Source: Lachnospiraceae bacterium (GTDB taxonomy: Bacteria; Bacillota; Clostridia; Lachnospirales; Lachnospiraceae). From it: a DNA stretch of 42,575 nt. This document shows positions 33,731 through 40,301 of this stretch, piece after piece. A model generated the notes under the pieces. It saw only the letters and a program-made list of their open reading frames with translations, did not search any database and was not told the DNA's origin. The position numbers and the translations under genes are program-made. The number at the start of each line of letters is the position of its first letter. Position 1 is the first letter of the stretch. The stretch lies in NCBI GenBank assembly GCA_017455005.1, contig JAFTBX010000035.1, positions 1 to 42,575 on the forward strand. The letters run 5' to 3'.

Positions 33731-33760
33731 GGCCAGATGGTCCGTTTATTTGATCTGGCC
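33731..33760 (-). terminator. Possible terminator overlapping the end of alaS
   Basis: Perfect 8-bp stem GGCCAGAT / ATCTGGCC that contains the last codons and stop of alaS. A T-rich stretch (TTTCTTAGATTTTTATT) follows, but about 25 bases later, so termination efficiency is doubtful. Confidence 0.4.
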
Positions 33761-36379
33761 CTTAACGATCTCGACTGCTTTCTCAAGAGCAGCCCCGATA
33801 CCGCTGACATCCGTACCGCCTGCCTGCGCCATGTTCGGACGTCCGCCGCCCTTGCCGCCGATCATCGGAGCGATCTCACGGATAATGTTGCCTGCCATTG
33901 CGCCGCGCTTCACTGCACCGTCTGTTGCGGAAGCGATCAGAGTCGCCTTGCCGTCAACTTCCGCGCCGAGCACAACGACGGAGTCACCAAGCTTATCCTT
34001 CAGGTTGTCGCTGAGCGTACGGAGCGCATTGACGTCGGAAGCGTCAGCCTTGATGCAAAGCACCTTGATGCCTGCAACGTCGACAGCATTGGCAGCTGCG
34101 TCACCGACAGAGTTGCCGGCAAGCTGTGCCTTCAGTTTCTCGTTCTCATTCTTCGCTGCCTTAAGATCCTCCATCAGCTGGGTGATCTTTCTGACAAGCT
34201 CGGAGGGCTGGGACTTAGCGGCAGCTGCTGCAGCAAGAAGCTCGTCCTCCTCGGTCTGGTAGTATGCAAGAAGGTTGTCGGAAGTAAGCGCCTCAATACG
34301 ACGTACGCCTGCCGCGATACCGGACTCGCTGATCAGTTTGAAGGAGCCGATCACGCCGGTGTTCGTCACATGTGTACCGCCGCAAAGCTCGGTAGACGGT
34401 CCCATCGTAACGACACGGACGGTATCGCCATACTTCTCTCCGAACAGAGCCATCGCGCCGGTCTTCTTCGCATCCTCAAGGCTCATCTCCTGGGTTACGA
34501 CCGGATGATTTTCCTTGATCAGGGTGTTGACGATCTTTGAAACCTCAGCCAGCTCATCCTTCGTCATCGCCTGGAAGTGCGTAAAGTCGAAACGCAGACG
34601 GTCCTTGTCGTAGTAAGCGCCGCTCTGCTCGACATGGCTGCCGAGGACCTTACGAAGCGCATACTGCAGAAGGTGGGTCGCGGAGTGGTTCTTCGCGGTT
34701 GCCGCACGTTCAGCTGCGTCAACTTCCAGTTCCACTTCCTGACCGACTCCGATCATGCCACGGGTCATCACGCCCACATGGCCTATCCTTCCGCCCTTGA
34801 GATGGATGGCCTCTGCCACTTTGAACTCACCGTCTCTGCTGCGGATCACGCCGCAGTCACCGATCTGTCCGCCCATGGTTGCGTAGAACGGCGTCTCATC
34901 GGTGATGATGGTGCCGCGCTCACCCTCAGACAGCGCCTCGGTCAGCTCTTCTTCTGTCGTCAGCACCAGGACCTTGCCGGTTCCTTTCAGCTGCTCATAG
35001 CCATTGAATACGGAAGTAATGGTCGGGTCGATCAGGTCGTAGACCGTCGCGTCCGCGCCCATGTAGTTGGAATGCTTGCGGGCCTTGCGCGCGGTCTCTT
35101 TCTGGACGCGCATGCACTCGTCGAAGCCCTCACGGTCAACAGAGTCGCCTTTTTCCTCCAGGATCTCGATGGTAAGGTCGATCGGGAATCCGTAGGTGTC
35201 ATACAGCTTGAAAGCGTCCGCGCCCTTGAGGGTCTTCTCGCCTGCCGCTTCCATATCAGCCATCATGCCGTTCAGGATGCCCATGCCGGCGTCGATGGTC
35301 TTATTGAACTTATCCTCTTCCTCGGCGAGAACCTTGAGGATCATAGCCTGCTTTTCTTCAAGCTCCGGATATCCGTCCTTGTTGAGCTCGATGACACGCT
35401 TTGCCATCTCCGGCATGAAGTCCTTGGTGATGCCGAGCTTGCGTCCGTGGCGGACCGCTCGGCGGATAATACGGCGAAGTACATAGCCGCGGCCTTCATT
35501 GGAAGGCATAATACCGTCGGAGATCATAAAGGTACTGGACTTCGCGTGGTCGGTCAGGATACGAAGGGAAATGTCCTTCTCATGATCAGCGTGATAGACA
35601 ACGCCGCAGAGCTCCGCGATGTACTCGAGGATCGCCTTGTTGGTATCAACGGTATAGATGGACTCCTCATCCTGTACAACCATCGCCAGACGCTCGAGGC
35701 CCATGCCGGTATCGATGTTCTTCTGAATCAGGTCGGTATAGTTGCCGTGGCCGTCGTTATCAAACTGTGAGAAGACGATGTTCCAGACCTCTACAAAGCG
35801 GTCGCCTTCACCGCCCATGACGTCCTCGGGACCATTGCCCCACTTCTCGCCGCGGTCATAATAGATCTCGGAGCAGGGGCCGCAGGGACCTTCGCCGTGC
35901 TCCCAGAAGTTGTCTTCCTTGCCGAAGCGATAGATACGCTCAGCCGGAACGCCGATCTCGTCTCTCCAGATATTGAAGGACTCATCATCGTCCAGATATA
36001 CCGAAGGATACAGGCGGTTCGGATCGAGGCCTACATCCTCCGTGAGGAATTTCCATGCAAACGGGATGGCTTCCTTCTTGAAATAATCTCCGAAGGAGAA
36101 GTTGCCCAGCATCTCGAAAAATGTACCGTGACGCGCTGTCTTGCCGACATTTTCAATGTCGCCGGTACGGATACACTTCTGGCAAGTCGTGACTCTGCGG
36201 CGCGGAGGGATCTCCTGGCCGGTGAAGTACGGCTTGAGCGGGGCCATGCCCGAATTGATCAAAAGTAATGAATCATCATTGTGCGGGACCAAAGAGAAGC
36301 TCTTCATCTTGAGATGGCCGTTTCTCTCGAAGTAGTCCAGAAACATGCGTCTTAATTCATTAACGCCTCTAACCTGCAT
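33746..36379 (-). CDS. alaS: Alanine--tRNA ligase
   Basis: 877 residues, full length. Class II catalytic core at the N-terminus (RRMFLDYFERNGH, TTCQKCIRTGDIENVG, ARHGTFFEMLGNFSFGDYFK), the tRNA-recognition region, the editing domain with its metal sites HSATH and CGGTHV, and the C-terminal C-Ala domain (GGKGGGRPNMAQAGG). It charges tRNA-Ala and removes mischarged Ser/Gly. ATG at 36379 follows AGAGGA by 8 bases. No T-box leader is visible in the 179 bases upstream. The stop codon lies in a hairpin. Confidence 0.98.
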   Translation of the reverse strand: MQVRGVNELRRMFLDYFERNGHLKMKSFSLVPHNDDSLLLINSGMAPLKPYFTGQEIPPRRRVTTCQKCIRTGDIENVGKTARHGTFFEMLGNFSFGDYFKKEAIPFAWKFLTEDVGLDPNRLYPSVYLDDDESFNIWRDEIGVPAERIYRFGKEDNFWEHGEGPCGPCSEIYYDRGEKWGNGPEDVMGGEGDRFVEVWNIVFSQFDNDGHGNYTDLIQKNIDTGMGLERLAMVVQDEESIYTVDTNKAILEYIAELCGVVYHADHEKDISLRILTDHAKSSTFMISDGIMPSNEGRGYVLRRIIRRAVRHGRKLGITKDFMPEMAKRVIELNKDGYPELEEKQAMILKVLAEEEDKFNKTIDAGMGILNGMMADMEAAGEKTLKGADAFKLYDTYGFPIDLTIEILEEKGDSVDREGFDECMRVQKETARKARKHSNYMGADATVYDLIDPTITSVFNGYEQLKGTGKVLVLTTEEELTEALSEGERGTIITDETPFYATMGGQIGDCGVIRSRDGEFKVAEAIHLKGGRIGHVGVMTRGMIGVGQEVELEVDAAERAATAKNHSATHLLQYALRKVLGSHVEQSGAYYDKDRLRFDFTHFQAMTKDELAEVSKIVNTLIKENHPVVTQEMSLEDAKKTGAMALFGEKYGDTVRVVTMGPSTELCGGTHVTNTGVIGSFKLISESGIAAGVRRIEALTSDNLLAYYQTEEDELLAAAAAAKSQPSELVRKITQLMEDLKAAKNENEKLKAQLAGNSVGDAAANAVDVAGIKVLCIKADASDVNALRTLSDNLKDKLGDSVVVLGAEVDGKATLIASATDGAVKRGAMAGNIIREIAPMIGGKGGGRPNMAQAGGTDVSGIGAALEKAVEIVKGQIK

Positions 36380-36558: not shown

Positions 36559-37428
36559 TCAGTCGATCTCGTCGTCAGTGATCGTGACTGTCGGCTTTTC
36601 TCCGAGCACACGCTCCGCTTCATAGGCAGCTTCCTTGATCTGCTCCGCAGCATTATCGCCGAGCTCATCAAGTACGTTGGCCGTTTCAATCGCCTCTTCC
36701 TCGGCTTTATTCTCAACATACGTTCCTGCTTCAGCGGCCTTTTCCGCAGCTTCTGCTGCAGCCTCTGCAGCCTTGTCGGCAGCATCGGCAGCTGCTTCTT
36801 CCACAGCTTCATTGATGCTCTCTGCGTACTTCTGACCGCCGGCGATCACATCCTCCGCAGTCTGGCAGCCGCAGTCGGCAGCATTGTCCGCTGTTTTATC
36901 CGCTTCTGCCGCAGCCTTTGCCTCGGTCTCGTCCGCAGATCTTACTACGTCGTCAAAATCGCCGTCTTCAAAGTCAGTGAACTCGTCTTCGCCCTTGATG
37001 CGCTCCGCAACGTCTTCAGCCACCTCGTTAACCTTCTGGCTGATATCGGAACCCATCTCCTTAAGGTTGTTGATTACTTCTTCCTTTGCGGCTTCCGGAT
37101 CCTCATCAAACTTTGCCTTGATCTCCTTGGCAGCCTGGACAGCGCCCGCGCCGGCAGTTTTCGCAATGTCAGCGGATTCAGTCACAACCGCACCGGCTGC
37201 CTTGGCCAGTTCCTTCGCCTCTTCCTTAACATTGCCTTTTTCCTTGATTGCAACATAGGTGCGCTTAGCAGCTTCCTTCACGTCGCCGGAGGCCTTCTTC
37301 ACGTTCCTGATCTGCTCTTCATCCGCAAAAGTCGCATTGCCATAATCTTTCAGGTACTTCGCAACGCCGGCTGCAACGCCCGCAATGATCAGGGTTCCGA
37401 GTAAACCGCCAGCTCTTCTCTTAGACAT
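36559..37428 (-). CDS. YtxH-like Ala/Glu-rich membrane-anchored protein
   Basis: 289 residues from the ATG at 37428, which has AAAGGAGA 6 bases upstream; an in-frame codon 30 bases earlier lacks a site. A basic start and one short hydrophobic segment (GGLLGTLIIAGVAAGVA, about 7-23) resemble YtxH-type proteins, then a very long Ala/Glu/Lys helix-forming region with repeated acidic-alanine heptads (about 70-110 and 205-240, AAADAADKAAEAAAEAAEK-type), interrupted by an acidic patch (about 146-158, FEDGDFDDV) and a lone CGC near 188. It is likely a membrane-anchored, extended amphipathic helix or coiled coil, possibly stress-related as in YtxH families. Function unknown. An in-frame extension follows its stop. 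Confidence 0.7.
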   Translation of the reverse strand: MSKRRAGGLLGTLIIAGVAAGVAKYLKDYGNATFADEEQIRNVKKASGDVKEAAKRTYVAIKEKGNVKEEAKELAKAAGAVVTESADIAKTAGAGAVQAAKEIKAKFDEDPEAAKEEVINNLKEMGSDISQKVNEVAEDVAERIKGEDEFTDFEDGDFDDVVRSADETEAKAAAEADKTADNAADCGCQTAEDVIAGGQKYAESINEAVEEAAADAADKAAEAAAEAAEKAAEAGTYVENKAEEEAIETANVLDELGDNAAEQIKEAAYEAERVLGEKPTVTITDDEID

Positions 37429-37502
37429 AGTAAATCTCCTTTCAAAAGTTGTAATCAAAGCCGTATATCAACTCAGAAAATAAAAAGTTTATCTCATCGG
37501 TA

Positions 37503-37964
37503 CTATTTAAACAGAAACTCCGGCCCGAAACTCACCGGAAGCAGTTTTTCCAGTTTATATACTTTATAATCCTCCGGCGATCTCGCAAGAACGACATCAA
37601 ATTCCTTCGGATCACAGAACTCCCGCAAGACCTGACGGCATGTGCCGCAGGGCGTCGCATAGGTGGGCAAAGCTTCCGGATGGAAATCGCAGCTTTCAAG
37701 GAAATCCCCGTCGCCCGCCACGACCGCGATGGCACTAAACTCCCTCTCGCCCTCGGAAACTGCCTTGAACACAGCCGTCCGCTCCGCACAGATCGTCGGA
37801 GTATAGGCAGCATTTTCAATATTGACACCACAATAGACTCTGCCGTCTTTCGTCAGCAGAGCCGCCGCTACATGATACCTGCTGTAAGGCGCGTAGGAAT
37901 TATGCAGCTGATCTATCGCCATCCTGATCAGGTCACTGTAATCTTTCATCATATCTTTACACAC
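37503..37964 (-). CDS. cdd: Cytidine deaminase
   Basis: 153 residues. Converts cytidine and deoxycytidine to uridine forms in pyrimidine salvage. Zinc ligands are Cys59 in TICAERTAV and Cys106/Cys109 in TPCGTCRQ, with Glu61 as the proton carrier; NIENAAYTPT and the APYSRYHVAAALL strand are further marks. Size is slightly above the usual 130-140 residues of the tetrameric type; the extra is C-terminal (KVYKLEKLLPVSFGPEFLFK). The GTG at 37964 has a partial anti-16S match (GGTGAT) 5 bases upstream; ATG at 37952 or 37949 is also possible. The structured RNA at 37965-38149 ends directly before this start on the same strand. Confidence 0.95.
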   Translation of the reverse strand: MCKDMMKDYSDLIRMAIDQLHNSYAPYSRYHVAAALLTKDGRVYCGVNIENAAYTPTICAERTAVFKAVSEGEREFSAIAVVAGDGDFLESCDFHPEALPTYATPCGTCRQVLREFCDPKEFDVVLARSPEDYKVYKLEKLLPVSFGPEFLFK

Positions 37965-38149
37965 AAAATATCACCCAAGGTGCCGTCGGTTTATAAGTGA
38001 CTCCCAGCTCTAAGCCAGGTGGGTATTCTCGGAGACCGTTTCAGCCATCCGCCTGCATAAGGGCGGCCCGACATCCACATCATCAATACTGAACTCCCGT
38101 ATGTCAATTTGTGGAAGTAATTGAATAAACCAAACGTACATCTCAGGCT
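37965..38149 (-). ncRNA. Structured RNA directly upstream of cdd (6S-like RNA or new cis-regulatory leader)
   Basis: About 185 nt starting some 7 bases after a good promoter and ending with TTTT at the cdd GTG. Stems read on the minus strand: TCCACA/TGTGGA (38110-38115 with 38074-38079); CCGCC/GGCGG (38062-38066 with 38049-38053); CCTGGCT/AGCTGGG (38013-38019 with 38003-38009); GTCGG/CCGAC (38068-38072 with 37985-37989); and ACCCA/TGGGT (38020-38024 with 37974-37978). The last two cross each other, so they form a pseudoknot or exclude one another. Size, own promoter and lack of coding potential are compatible with a 6S RNA, and the closing motif CGACGGCACCTTGGGTG looks familiar to me from clostridial 6S RNAs, but I cannot confirm this. 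The alternative is a cdd leader that hides or shows the GGTGAT ribosome site. This fills most of the long gene-free stretch between cdd and tRNA-Pro(UGG). Confidence 0.5.
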
Positions 38150-38155
38150 GTACTT

Positions 38156-38184
38156 ACTATACCATAAAATGGACGTTTATACAA
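38156..38184 (-). promoter_or_regulatory. Promoter of the structured RNA upstream of cdd
   Basis: Minus strand: -35 TTGTAT (38179-38184), 17-base spacer ending TGG (extended -10), -10 TATAGT (38156-38161). Confidence 0.7.
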
Positions 38185-38273
38185 TCCATGTATCTCTACA
38201 TGGCCCGTACAATACAGACCGTCGGAATGCAGTTTTTAGGTGCAAAATCACTATATGCTTCGTGTTCTGAAAC

Positions 38274-38291
38274 TGTGGGCGTCCGCCCACA
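38274..38291 (-). repeat. Perfect 8-bp hairpin
   Basis: TGTGGGCG / CGCCCACA with 2 bases between, 2 bases from the larger palindrome at 38294-38351. The 80 bases beyond it (38190-38273), up to the RNA promoter, hold nothing I can identify. Confidence 0.6.
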
Positions 38292-38293
38292 CA

Positions 38294-38351
38294 TTCGAAA
38301 GGTCCGGGTACATCCGAATGTAAACATTCGTTCGTACCCGGACCTTCCGAA
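38294..38351. repeat. 58-bp near-perfect palindrome downstream of tRNA-Pro(UGG)
   Basis: The two 29-base halves match as inverted repeats at 24 positions: an outer arm AAGGTCCGGGTAC / GTACCCGGACCTT, a 3-base mismatch, and an inner stem CGAATG / CATTCG with loop TAAA. It begins 11 bases after the tRNA 3' end. No T run follows on the minus strand, so it is not a standard terminator, though it may help tRNA 3' processing or slow polymerase. Other options are a small repeat element or an attachment-type scar. Confidence 0.7.
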
Positions 38352-38362
38352 ATGCTGTTCAG

Positions 38363-38436
38363 TCGGGGTGACAAGATTCGAACTTGCGACCTCTTGATCC
38401 CAAATCAAGCGCCCTACCAAGCTGGGCCACACCCCG
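38363..38436 (-). tRNA. tRNA-Pro, anticodon UGG
   Basis: 74 nt. Acceptor CGGGGTG / CACCCCG, anticodon stem CTTGA / TCAAG with loop TTTGGGA (anticodon TGG), T stem GCAAG / CTTGT with loop TTCGAAT, discriminator A. CCA is not encoded. Anticodon TGG can read most Pro codons; the GGG species at 32431 covers CCC/CCU. Confidence 0.95.
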
Positions 38437-38447
38437 AAAGCCAAATA

Positions 38448-38476
38448 ATCTTATCATAATCCGGCTTTTGAGTCAA
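38448..38476 (-). promoter_or_regulatory. Sigma-A promoter of tRNA-Pro(UGG)
   Basis: Minus strand: -35 TTGACT (38471-38476), 17-base spacer ending TGA (extended -10), -10 TAAGAT (38448-38453), only 11 bases before the tRNA 5' end. No terminator separates it from the kinase gene upstream. Confidence 0.75.
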
Positions 38477-38498
38477 GTTTGTTTTCTTGATCCTTATC

Positions 38499-40301
38499 TT
38501 AGCACGCTTCCGACTGGCCCGTTTTCATGGTGATCCAGAACTCTACGCCGCCGTCGACTTCGATGTCGCCTTCATTGACAGGATACGGACCTGCCGCAAC
38601 GTTTCGTACGCCGTAAGAGCCGCCGTGGGCTTCCATGATCGCTTTGACGATGCTTAAGCCGATGCCGCTGCCGCCATACGCGCGCGTCCGGGCCTTATCG
38701 ACCTTGTAGAACTTCTCCCAGACCTGTGTGAGGCTTTCTTCCGGAATCGGCTCTCCGTCATTATAGACGCTGAGCCGCCAGCCGCCATCTTCCGGCTGCA
38801 GCCTTACGATGATCTTCCTTCCGCGGTCCAGATGGTTTATCGCGTTGCTCATGTAGTTGGTGAACACCTCTTCTACCTTGAACTCGTCAGCACACACGAC
38901 TGCCGGCTCCGAAAGATCCATGGTAAGCGCGGCATTTGCCTCTTCCAGCTTTAAACGGTTGGAGGAAACCACGCTCCGAATCAGTTCTCCCAGATCAAAG
39001 GTCTCACGATCGAGCTGTACCTCTCCGTATTCATAGCTCATCAGGGAAGTCAGCTGACGGACCATCTTATTCATCTTCGCGGACTCATCCACGATGACGG
39101 AGCAGTAATAATCCCGGCTCTCCTTATCGTCCGCGATGCCCTCGATGATCCCTTCAGCGTAGCCTTCGATCAGTGCGATCGGGGTCTTCAGCTCATGGGA
39201 CACGTTCGCGATGAAATCCTTTCGCATCTCATCGATCTTTTCCTTTTGATGGATGTCCTCCTGAAGCTTCGCGTTTGCTTCCTGCAGCTGCTCATTAGTA
39301 TCGCGCAGGCGTTCGATTGCCTCACTCAAACGATCGGACATCGTGTTCATCGAATCGCCCAGCAGGCCGATCTCATTTTCAGCCTCGCCCTCATAACGCG
39401 CGCTGAAATCGAGGTTGGACATGCGCTCGGAAAGATGCGCGAGCTCGTTGATCGGCTGCGTCATCCGACTGGCGGCAAAGTAGACCGCAATGCTGCCGAG
39501 CACAAGAAGAATCGCTCCCGTGATCAGACTGAAGCGTGTGCTGATCTCCGCACCTTCATTAATACTGGCAAGCGGCATGGACATCAGGAAGTTGGTGCTG
39601 CCGTCTGAAAATGTTCCCCAGCACTCGAGATAGCTCGAGCCGGAACGGCGGTCATAAAAGATCTGCGTCTCATAGTTTTCATTCTGGCGCAGGGTACGGA
39701 TTGTTGTGGGCTCGCCGCCCTTATCGGATGATCCCAGCACAGAAGAAAACGGCCACAAGGATCCAATCGAAGACCCGCCCGTCTTGCCGCCGTACACGGA
39801 ACTGCTGCCCGCACTCTCGCCTGCTGCATTTCCGGTATCCTCACTGTCCAGGATCCCTTCACCGCTTTTTCTCTGCGGCGCAGGGATCTCCACGGTCGTG
39901 TTCTCCGCAAAGACGTCCCTGTACGTCAGGTACAGCCTGAGCTTCATCGCGAGCCACTCACCCTCACGGCTTGTGGCCGCCATTTCCGAGCCGGTCTCGT
40001 CCGTCATGACGATATCGATGTTGGAACGCTCGTTCAGCGCACGGAAGATCGCGATCGTCGGCGTATCCTCGACGTTCTGTCCGTACTCTTCCTCGATCAG
40101 GTCAAAGACCGTCTGGTCATTGTTGCCCGCGATGGTTACGACCTTGTCAATCGTCTCATAGGCAACATCGAGCATATGGATACGGCGGTTTAAGTAATAA
40201 TCCTCCAGGAAAAAACGGTTCACAAAAACCATCGTCAGCAGCAGTGCCGCAACGATGGCGATAAAGATCAGTGTAAATGTTGTCTTGATCGAGCGTTTCA
40301 T
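38499..40301 (-). CDS. Sensor histidine kinase
   Basis: 600 residues. Two membrane helices (about 9-30 and 258-276) frame an outside sensor domain of about 225 residues, followed by HAMP (about 278-330), a coiled coil (330-360) and the kinase: H box DFIANVSHELKTPIALIEGY (His369), N box FTNYMSNAINHLDRGRK, G boxes YNDGEPIPEE and GGSGIGLSIVKAIMEAHGG. It pairs with the OmpR-type regulator encoded 54 bases upstream. Within the sensor, residues about 143-197 are a Gly/Ser-rich low-complexity insert (GNAAGESAGSSSVYGGKTGG-like), probably a disordered loop. The signal cannot be read; membrane or envelope stress is a guess. Confidence 0.93.
   Translation of the reverse strand: MKRSIKTTFTLIFIAIVAALLLTMVFVNRFFLEDYYLNRRIHMLDVAYETIDKVVTIAGNNDQTVFDLIEEEYGQNVEDTPTIAIFRALNERSNIDIVMTDETGSEMAATSREGEWLAMKLRLYLTYRDVFAENTTVEIPAPQRKSGEGILDSEDTGNAAGESAGSSSVYGGKTGGSSIGSLWPFSSVLGSSDKGGEPTTIRTLRQNENYETQIFYDRRSGSSYLECWGTFSDGSTNFLMSMPLASINEGAEISTRFSLITGAILLVLGSIAVYFAASRMTQPINELAHLSERMSNLDFSARYEGEAENEIGLLGDSMNTMSDRLSEAIERLRDTNEQLQEANAKLQEDIHQKEKIDEMRKDFIANVSHELKTPIALIEGYAEGIIEGIADDKESRDYYCSVIVDESAKMNKMVRQLTSLMSYEYGEVQLDRETFDLGELIRSVVSSNRLKLEEANAALTMDLSEPAVVCADEFKVEEVFTNYMSNAINHLDRGRKIIVRLQPEDGGWRLSVYNDGEPIPEESLTQVWEKFYKVDKARTRAYGGSGIGLSIVKAIMEAHGGSYGVRNVAAGPYPVNEGDIEVDGGVEFWITMKTGQSEAC

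Follow-up and report, generated by a model that had tools for sequence, protein, structure and literature searches.

The locus analysed lies on the minus strand of a 42,575-nucleotide stretch of Lachnospiraceae DNA, referred to here in its whole length as the window. Read along that strand, a tRNA-Pro(UGG) gene is followed by a long hairpin, an extended -10 promoter element, a 6S RNA gene, cdd, an open reading frame of 299 amino acids and alaS. The principal features are the following.

38363..38436, minus strand: tRNA-Pro(UGG), the neighbour upstream of the 6S gene
38179..38184, minus strand: weak -35 element read from the sequence, TTGTAT, with a 17-nucleotide spacer to the -10 element
38156..38164, minus strand: extended -10 element of the 6S gene read from the sequence, TGG-TATAGT; an extended -10 occurs in a similar place in 21 of the 24 6S genes of the genus
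37968..38152, minus strand: 6S RNA (ssrS-type), matched over its full length by RF00013 at 56.4 bits and by the genus covariance model R1 at 198.9 bits
37503..37952, minus strand: cdd, cytidine deaminase, 149 amino acids (TIGR01354, 137.1 bits against a cut-off of 113.65; PF00383 also above cut-off)
36559..37458, minus strand: 299-amino-acid open reading frame between cdd and alaS, which follows 6S where cdd is missing from the locus (G013, G022)
33746..36379, minus strand: alaS, alanine--tRNA ligase (TIGR00344, 975.5 bits)

Comparison with Rfam identified the RNA at 38152-37968 as 6S RNA (RF00013, 6S/SsrS). The match exceeds the curated cut-off of 46.4 bits, has an E value of 1e-8 for the whole window, covers model positions 1-187 of 187 and is the only 6S match in the genome assembly, which is about 80% complete. 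A scan of 37800-38300 against Rfam at E ≤ 10, riboswitch models included, returned besides 6S only a snoRNA match (13.2 bits, against its cut-off of 39), and a riboswitch or other Rfam family was therefore ruled out. The sequence-only reading had described a structured RNA of about 185 nucleotides and had offered two identities for it, a pyrimidine-sensing leader of cdd or the organism's 6S RNA; the full-length match bears out the structured RNA and, together with the covariation described below, shows the second identity to be right. The stretch is thus a 6S RNA, a member of a known family of RNA polymerase regulators, and not a new pyrimidine switch. It resembles RF00013 in its length of 185 nucleotides, its closing stem, internal region and terminal stem, its CCACC segment and its single occurrence in the assembly. 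It differs in belonging to a divergent genus-level group, for which a strict-filter Rfam search missed nine of the 24 genomes where R1 found 6S (G001, G002, G004, G008, G009, G017, G019, G021 and G023, at 156-200 bits); the R1 score of the window's own 6S is that of a sequence included in the model. This divergent group may be under-annotated.

The consensus fold and the model R1 were both derived from an alignment of 15 6S sequences from the genus (A1). Three elements of the fold are needed below.

38135..38147, minus strand: 5' arm of the 6S closing stem (A1 columns 6-18)
37974..37985, minus strand: 3' arm of the 6S closing stem (A1 columns 176-187, 98.8% of cells paired)
38018..38024, minus strand: ACCCACC, the conserved 3' side of the 6S central region, with CCACC invariant in 15 of 15 sequences

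The fold comprises 42 pairs, and 97.8% of alignment cells are paired compared with 29-53% when the structure is slid along the alignment, a measure on which a structure derived from A1 itself is favoured. Fifteen of the 42 pairs change on both sides, and both-side changes were counted in 46 cells, against 12.3 in shuffles and 0-9 in slid controls; none of 500 shuffles attained any of the five measures used. The rod of closing stem, internal region and terminal stem is therefore kept by compensatory change within A1, and the conserved structure stands against the lack of covariation that the sequence-only reading had named as grounds for abandoning it. The covarying fold has no crossing helices. 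Predicted stability of 38152-37946 was at chance level (z -0.43; 68 of 200 shuffles fold as well). Because stability alone proves nothing here, it was discarded as evidence for structure, which comes instead from the family match and the covariation.

The only helix that the sequence-only reading spelled out, ACCCA/TGGGT, had been said to include the GGTGAT ribosome-site bases of cdd. Its ACCCA arm is the first five bases of the ACCCACC segment at 38018..38024. In A1, 85.3% of its cells pair, compared with 83.5% in shuffles and 15-55% when slid; its covariation score of 0.034 falls below the 0.038 and 0.044 obtained after sliding by one and two columns, and 125 of 500 shuffles equal or exceed it. 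The TGGGT arm pairs instead with the 5' end of the RNA, in the 6S closing stem. With covariation inside both slid and shuffled controls, this helix was rejected.

The extended -10 promoter proposed upstream of the RNA fared well. An element of this kind lies 2-6 nucleotides before the 6S match in 21 of the 24 genus 6S genes, compared with 10% of shuffled upstream regions by the scoring of the script used, so that, judged by sequence, 6S has a housekeeping-type promoter of its own. Possession of an extended -10 coincides exactly with adjacency to cdd, in either order: the same 21 genes have both. A consensus scan of 37400-38500 found three promoter-like sites against 1.6 expected, and no terminator-like sites against 1.2 from shuffles; the 6S promoter is not among the three because its -35 element is too weak for the rule. 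A promoter-like TTGACA-17-GATGAT, matching the consensus at 10 of 12 positions, lies inside the 6S gene at 38107-38079.

Between the tRNA gene and the 6S promoter there is a very stable hairpin (38355-38291, minus strand); the predicted energy of 38362-38262 is -58.3 kcal/mol (z -9.7), and the closest relative, G012, has by eye a hairpin of like shape with another stem sequence. The hairpin may serve to terminate the tRNA transcript, although it has only a short T run. Two genomes of the genus have a different layout: the 6S match begins 2 nucleotides (G016, locus L041) and 14 nucleotides (G022, locus L044) after tRNA-Pro(UGG), with no extended -10 between. From this spacing, 6S in G016 and G022 is likely cut from a tRNA-6S co-transcript. 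G013 likewise lacks the extended -10, and its tRNA-Pro is 252 nucleotides off and followed, by eye, by a terminator-like hairpin.

The distribution of the pair was followed through 25 genomes of the genus. R1 found exactly one 6S gene in 24 of them, the miss being G015, which is 59% complete; cdd was found in 23 at E ≤ 1e-10 and was absent from the results for G015 and G022. Same-strand tandems of 6S then cdd occur in 18 of the 24 genomes with 6S, separated by 10-184 nucleotides from the 6S match to the first aligned base of cdd. Three genomes (G004, G017 and G021) have the reverse order, cdd then 6S, with gaps of 56-82 nucleotides. In the remaining three, 6S does not lie beside cdd: in G013 and G016 cdd is on another contig, and G022 has no cdd match. 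The 6S gene of these three sits after tRNA-Pro and before the 299-amino-acid frame (G013, G022) or alaS (all three), that is, among the window's neighbours minus cdd, which indicates that 6S persists without cdd behind it. The RNA thus does not always precede cdd, a point on which the idea of a cdd leader depended: six of the 24 genomes have no cdd behind 6S, three of these with the order reversed. The tandem is a neighbourhood at the level of the genus; it is no leader that senses a metabolite. Many loci of the genus have a match to the 299-amino-acid frame, placed after 6S or cdd and before alaS; the frame has no NCBIfam match, and its only Pfam match, to an apolipoprotein family, is sub-threshold.

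We also built a tree of cdd from 22 genus sequences and 8 from outside, leaving out G010, whose cdd is cut by a contig end. The cdd genes of G013 and G016 group with the outside sequences, and the three reversed cdd genes fall within the tandem group. Support is weak at most forks (6 of 27 were starred), and we therefore draw no firm history from this tree.

At the junction itself, the cdd start codon ATG 37952 lies 15 nucleotides after the 6S match, in agreement with the close contact first described. A short motif at the junction had been taken as the cdd ribosome-binding site.

37970..37975, minus strand: GGTGAT, partly within the closing stem; not a conserved ribosome-binding site

The first two bases of GGTGAT are the last two G of the 3' arm of the closing stem. 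The motif is 17 nucleotides from ATG 37952 and 5 nucleotides from an in-frame GTG at 37964, the only start that it could serve, and in G012 the GTG is not an in-frame start (sequence there: GGGTAAAC). GGTGA overlaps the 6S end in one of the 18 tandem spacers, that of this species (G000), while 12 of the 18 carry a Shine-Dalgarno-like 5-mer outside 6S that begins within 14 nucleotides of the start codon. Assignment of GGTGAT as the ribosome site was not borne out. What remains of the notable contact with cdd is the adjacency, a trait of the genus (21 of 24 genomes), and not the overlap with a ribosome site.

We then considered where 6S transcripts could end. In this species, 7 of the 12 bases that follow the closing stem are T, and 15 of 18 spacers have 6 T or more among the 12 positions downstream of the closing GGG, with no control for T-richness. 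Two of the three tail-poor spacers, G005 and G018, carry a hairpin terminator instead. By the script's rule, also with no control, terminator-like hairpins lie between 6S and cdd in five of 18 spacers (G003, G005, G010, G014 and G020), and G018 adds a sixth by eye. A hairpin between the genes suggests that in these six relatives 6S and cdd are probably transcribed separately. The spacer of G000 has no terminator by the same rule, under which its arrangement of stem and tail was not called one.

Beyond the genus, the strict-filter Rfam search found 6S in 85 of 99 genomes, our own included, at E ≤ 0.1, 75 of them above cut-off. Seventy-five of the 90 loci in a first set lay outside the genus, and none of these had cdd 3' of 6S in the flank examined, mostly about 2.5 kb and less than 300 nucleotides behind 6S in G084, G088 and G098; in two genomes (G045 and G074) the same strand carries cdd upstream of 6S. 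An even draw of 150 genomes of the family, in which cdd matches weaker than E 1e-20 were not counted, gave cdd in 142, 6S in 142 and both in 136, 134 of them outside the genus. Pairs were selected visually and their distances then computed. In none of the 134 was 6S found within 3.5 kb 5' of cdd, nearness across contig breaks being invisible because only 22 of them have both genes on one contig.

The opposite order recurs. In nine of the 134 genomes (G115, G176, G210, G118, G144, G199, G045, G165 and G138), a same-strand cdd is found at most 3.5 kb to the 5' side of 6S, compared with about 0.3 expected at random (0.31, by simple arithmetic assuming 3.0 Mb genomes and independence). The two genes are directly adjacent only in G138, at 155 nucleotides. 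A deoA-like gene separates them in G115, G176 and G210, and a PEP-carboxykinase-like gene in G045, G118, G144 and G165, with a weak match (23%) in G199; neither is found between them in G138. These names come from one representative each, and the PEP-carboxykinase-like protein scores under the NCBIfam cut-offs. A deoC match precedes cdd in eight of the nine, with none in the stretch examined for G199.

A separate collection of cdd loci came from named genomes. Among the best 80 of 136, R1 placed 6S 5' of cdd in six (L169-L173 and L175), all from this genus, and 3' of cdd in four (L174, L176, L177 and L192, the last cut by a contig end). The reach of R1 was such that 35 of 35 family loci with Rfam 6S matches were recovered. 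Taken together, loci outside the genus with 6S 3' of cdd were L249-L256, L065, L174, L176, L177 and L192. In most of them a deoC-cdd pair precedes 6S, and what lies between cdd and 6S is a deoA-like gene, a PEP-carboxykinase-like gene or neither of the two; L176 and L254 gave no deoC match. In order-level relatives, two further arrangements were seen: tRNA-Ala lies 11 and 3 nucleotides 3' of 6S in G067 (C14) and G088 (C33), and two genomes of one genus (G080, C13; G093, C3) have two tandem 6S genes 8-51 nucleotides apart.

We hold with good confidence that 38152-37968 encodes a 6S RNA predicted to bind the housekeeping RNA polymerase, with cdd likely expressed by read-through from the 6S promoter. 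Family membership predicts that the RNA binds the housekeeping holoenzyme, would hold it back in stationary phase and template short product RNAs on it, and would be abundant, with high levels in that phase. Transcription from the extended -10 promoter would continue into cdd, and 6S would be freed either where the closing stem and T-rich tail act as a weak terminator or through processing; termination may be the rule and read-through the leak. Read-through is the simplest source of cdd mRNA because the gap is 15 nucleotides and no terminator was called by the rules used, and we infer it because 15 nucleotides leave no room for a separate promoter. Judging from this layout and from the example of ygfA in E. 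coli, cdd is likely co-transcribed with 6S here. The locus holds an ordinary 6S gene in an unusual neighbourhood.

Two points speak against full read-through: the T-rich tail could end most transcripts before cdd, and the internal TTGACA-17-GATGAT might drive cdd alone. Together they describe a 6S transcript that stops at the closing stem with its T-rich tail, and a cdd gene transcribed separately from a promoter inside 6S, an arrangement that we regard as unlikely in this species. It is favoured by the tails in 15 of 18 spacers, by the hairpin terminators in two of the three exceptions, by the five terminator-like hairpins and by the promoter-like site itself. That site, however, falls in bases held by 6S conservation and has a poor -10, the scan that yields three sites expects 1.6, the T-richness and hairpin counts are without controls, and the stem and tail of this species were not called a terminator.

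We are more doubtful still of a broader proposal, that 6S and cdd form a recurrent functional unit in Lachnospiraceae-type bacteria. In the family, 6S would stand at the 3' end of a deoC-cdd-(deoA or PEP-carboxykinase-like) cluster; in this genus it would have moved to the front as the 5' leader of the cdd mRNA, and pyrimidine salvage would track 6S. A dual role, in which the closing stem hides GGTGAT before GTG 37964 and folding of 6S blocks cdd translation, seems very improbable. The GGT of the motif does fall within the predicted closing stem, and the motif is 5 nucleotides from a GTG in the cdd frame, but the overlap is confined to one spacer in 18, a Shine-Dalgarno-like 5-mer of their own lies beyond 6S in 12 of the 18, and the closest relative does not have the GTG as an in-frame start.

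A cis-acting, pyrimidine-sensing leader of cdd is rejected, and we give it almost no credence: for it there is the tandem order in 18 of 24 genomes, and against it there are the 6S match with no Rfam riboswitch match, the occurrence of this RNA with no cdd after it in G013, G016 and G022 and on the 3' side of cdd in G004, G017 and G021 (6 of 24 genus genomes in all), its absence from the 3.5 kb 5' of cdd in all 134 non-genus genomes with both genes, and the want of a conserved expression platform, with GGTGA overlapping 6S in one species, spacers ranging over 10-184 nucleotides and ACCCA/TGGGT showing no covariation. A clear 6S match and homologues unlinked to cdd are what the sequence-only reading had itself said would refute the switch.

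With the locus read as a 6S gene leading a likely co-transcribed cdd, one candidate pyrimidine riboswitch is removed, and a second kind of 6S-plus-metabolic-gene tandem can be set beside the ssrS-ygfA unit. Should the link to cdd be functional, the question of why 6S genes accompany nucleotide-metabolism genes could be tested in Firmicutes; as it stands, the result is mainly one of annotation, of a divergent 6S group and its neighbourhood. Searches combining 6S with cytidine deaminase, cdd, Lachnospiraceae, synteny, ygfA and Firmicutes/bsrA found no 6S-cdd link in the literature covered, subscription journals lying mostly outside that scope. Within the same literature, 6S RNA and cytidine deaminase occurred together only in a Borrelia transcript map, where either term appears once, and 6S RNA in Lachnospiraceae only as a listed Rfam-predicted 6S. 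Within the literature covered, cdd appears to be new as a partner of 6S; the 6S family and the tandem of 6S with a metabolic gene are known.

The arrangement of 6S leading a metabolic gene is a known one because of precedents in E. coli and Coxiella. Passages of PMC2848244 describe co-transcription of E. coli 6S with ygfA, a gene order kept throughout gamma-proteobacteria, and state in 2010 that its functional significance was 'presently not known'; a passage of PMC4064990 locates Coxiella 6S in the ygfA 5' UTR. In lactic acid bacteria, the neighbours of the 6S gene are likewise described as conserved, and in several Streptococcaceae a tRNA gene touches 6S (in part of PMC8414754). The neighbours named there are rarA, upsA and tRNA-Lys, compared with tRNA-Pro, cdd and alaS here, and the tRNA-Ala behind 6S in G067 and G088 resembles the tRNA-Lys behind 6S in several Streptococcaceae (same source, in part). 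The window shares with E. coli ssrS-ygfA a 6S gene followed by a metabolic gene on the same strand, co-transcription being known in E. coli (PMC2848244 and PMC4064990, in the passages cited). It differs in that the partner is cdd and not the folate gene ygfA, that the tandem is seen in one genus, and that co-transcription here is a likely reading of the gene order.
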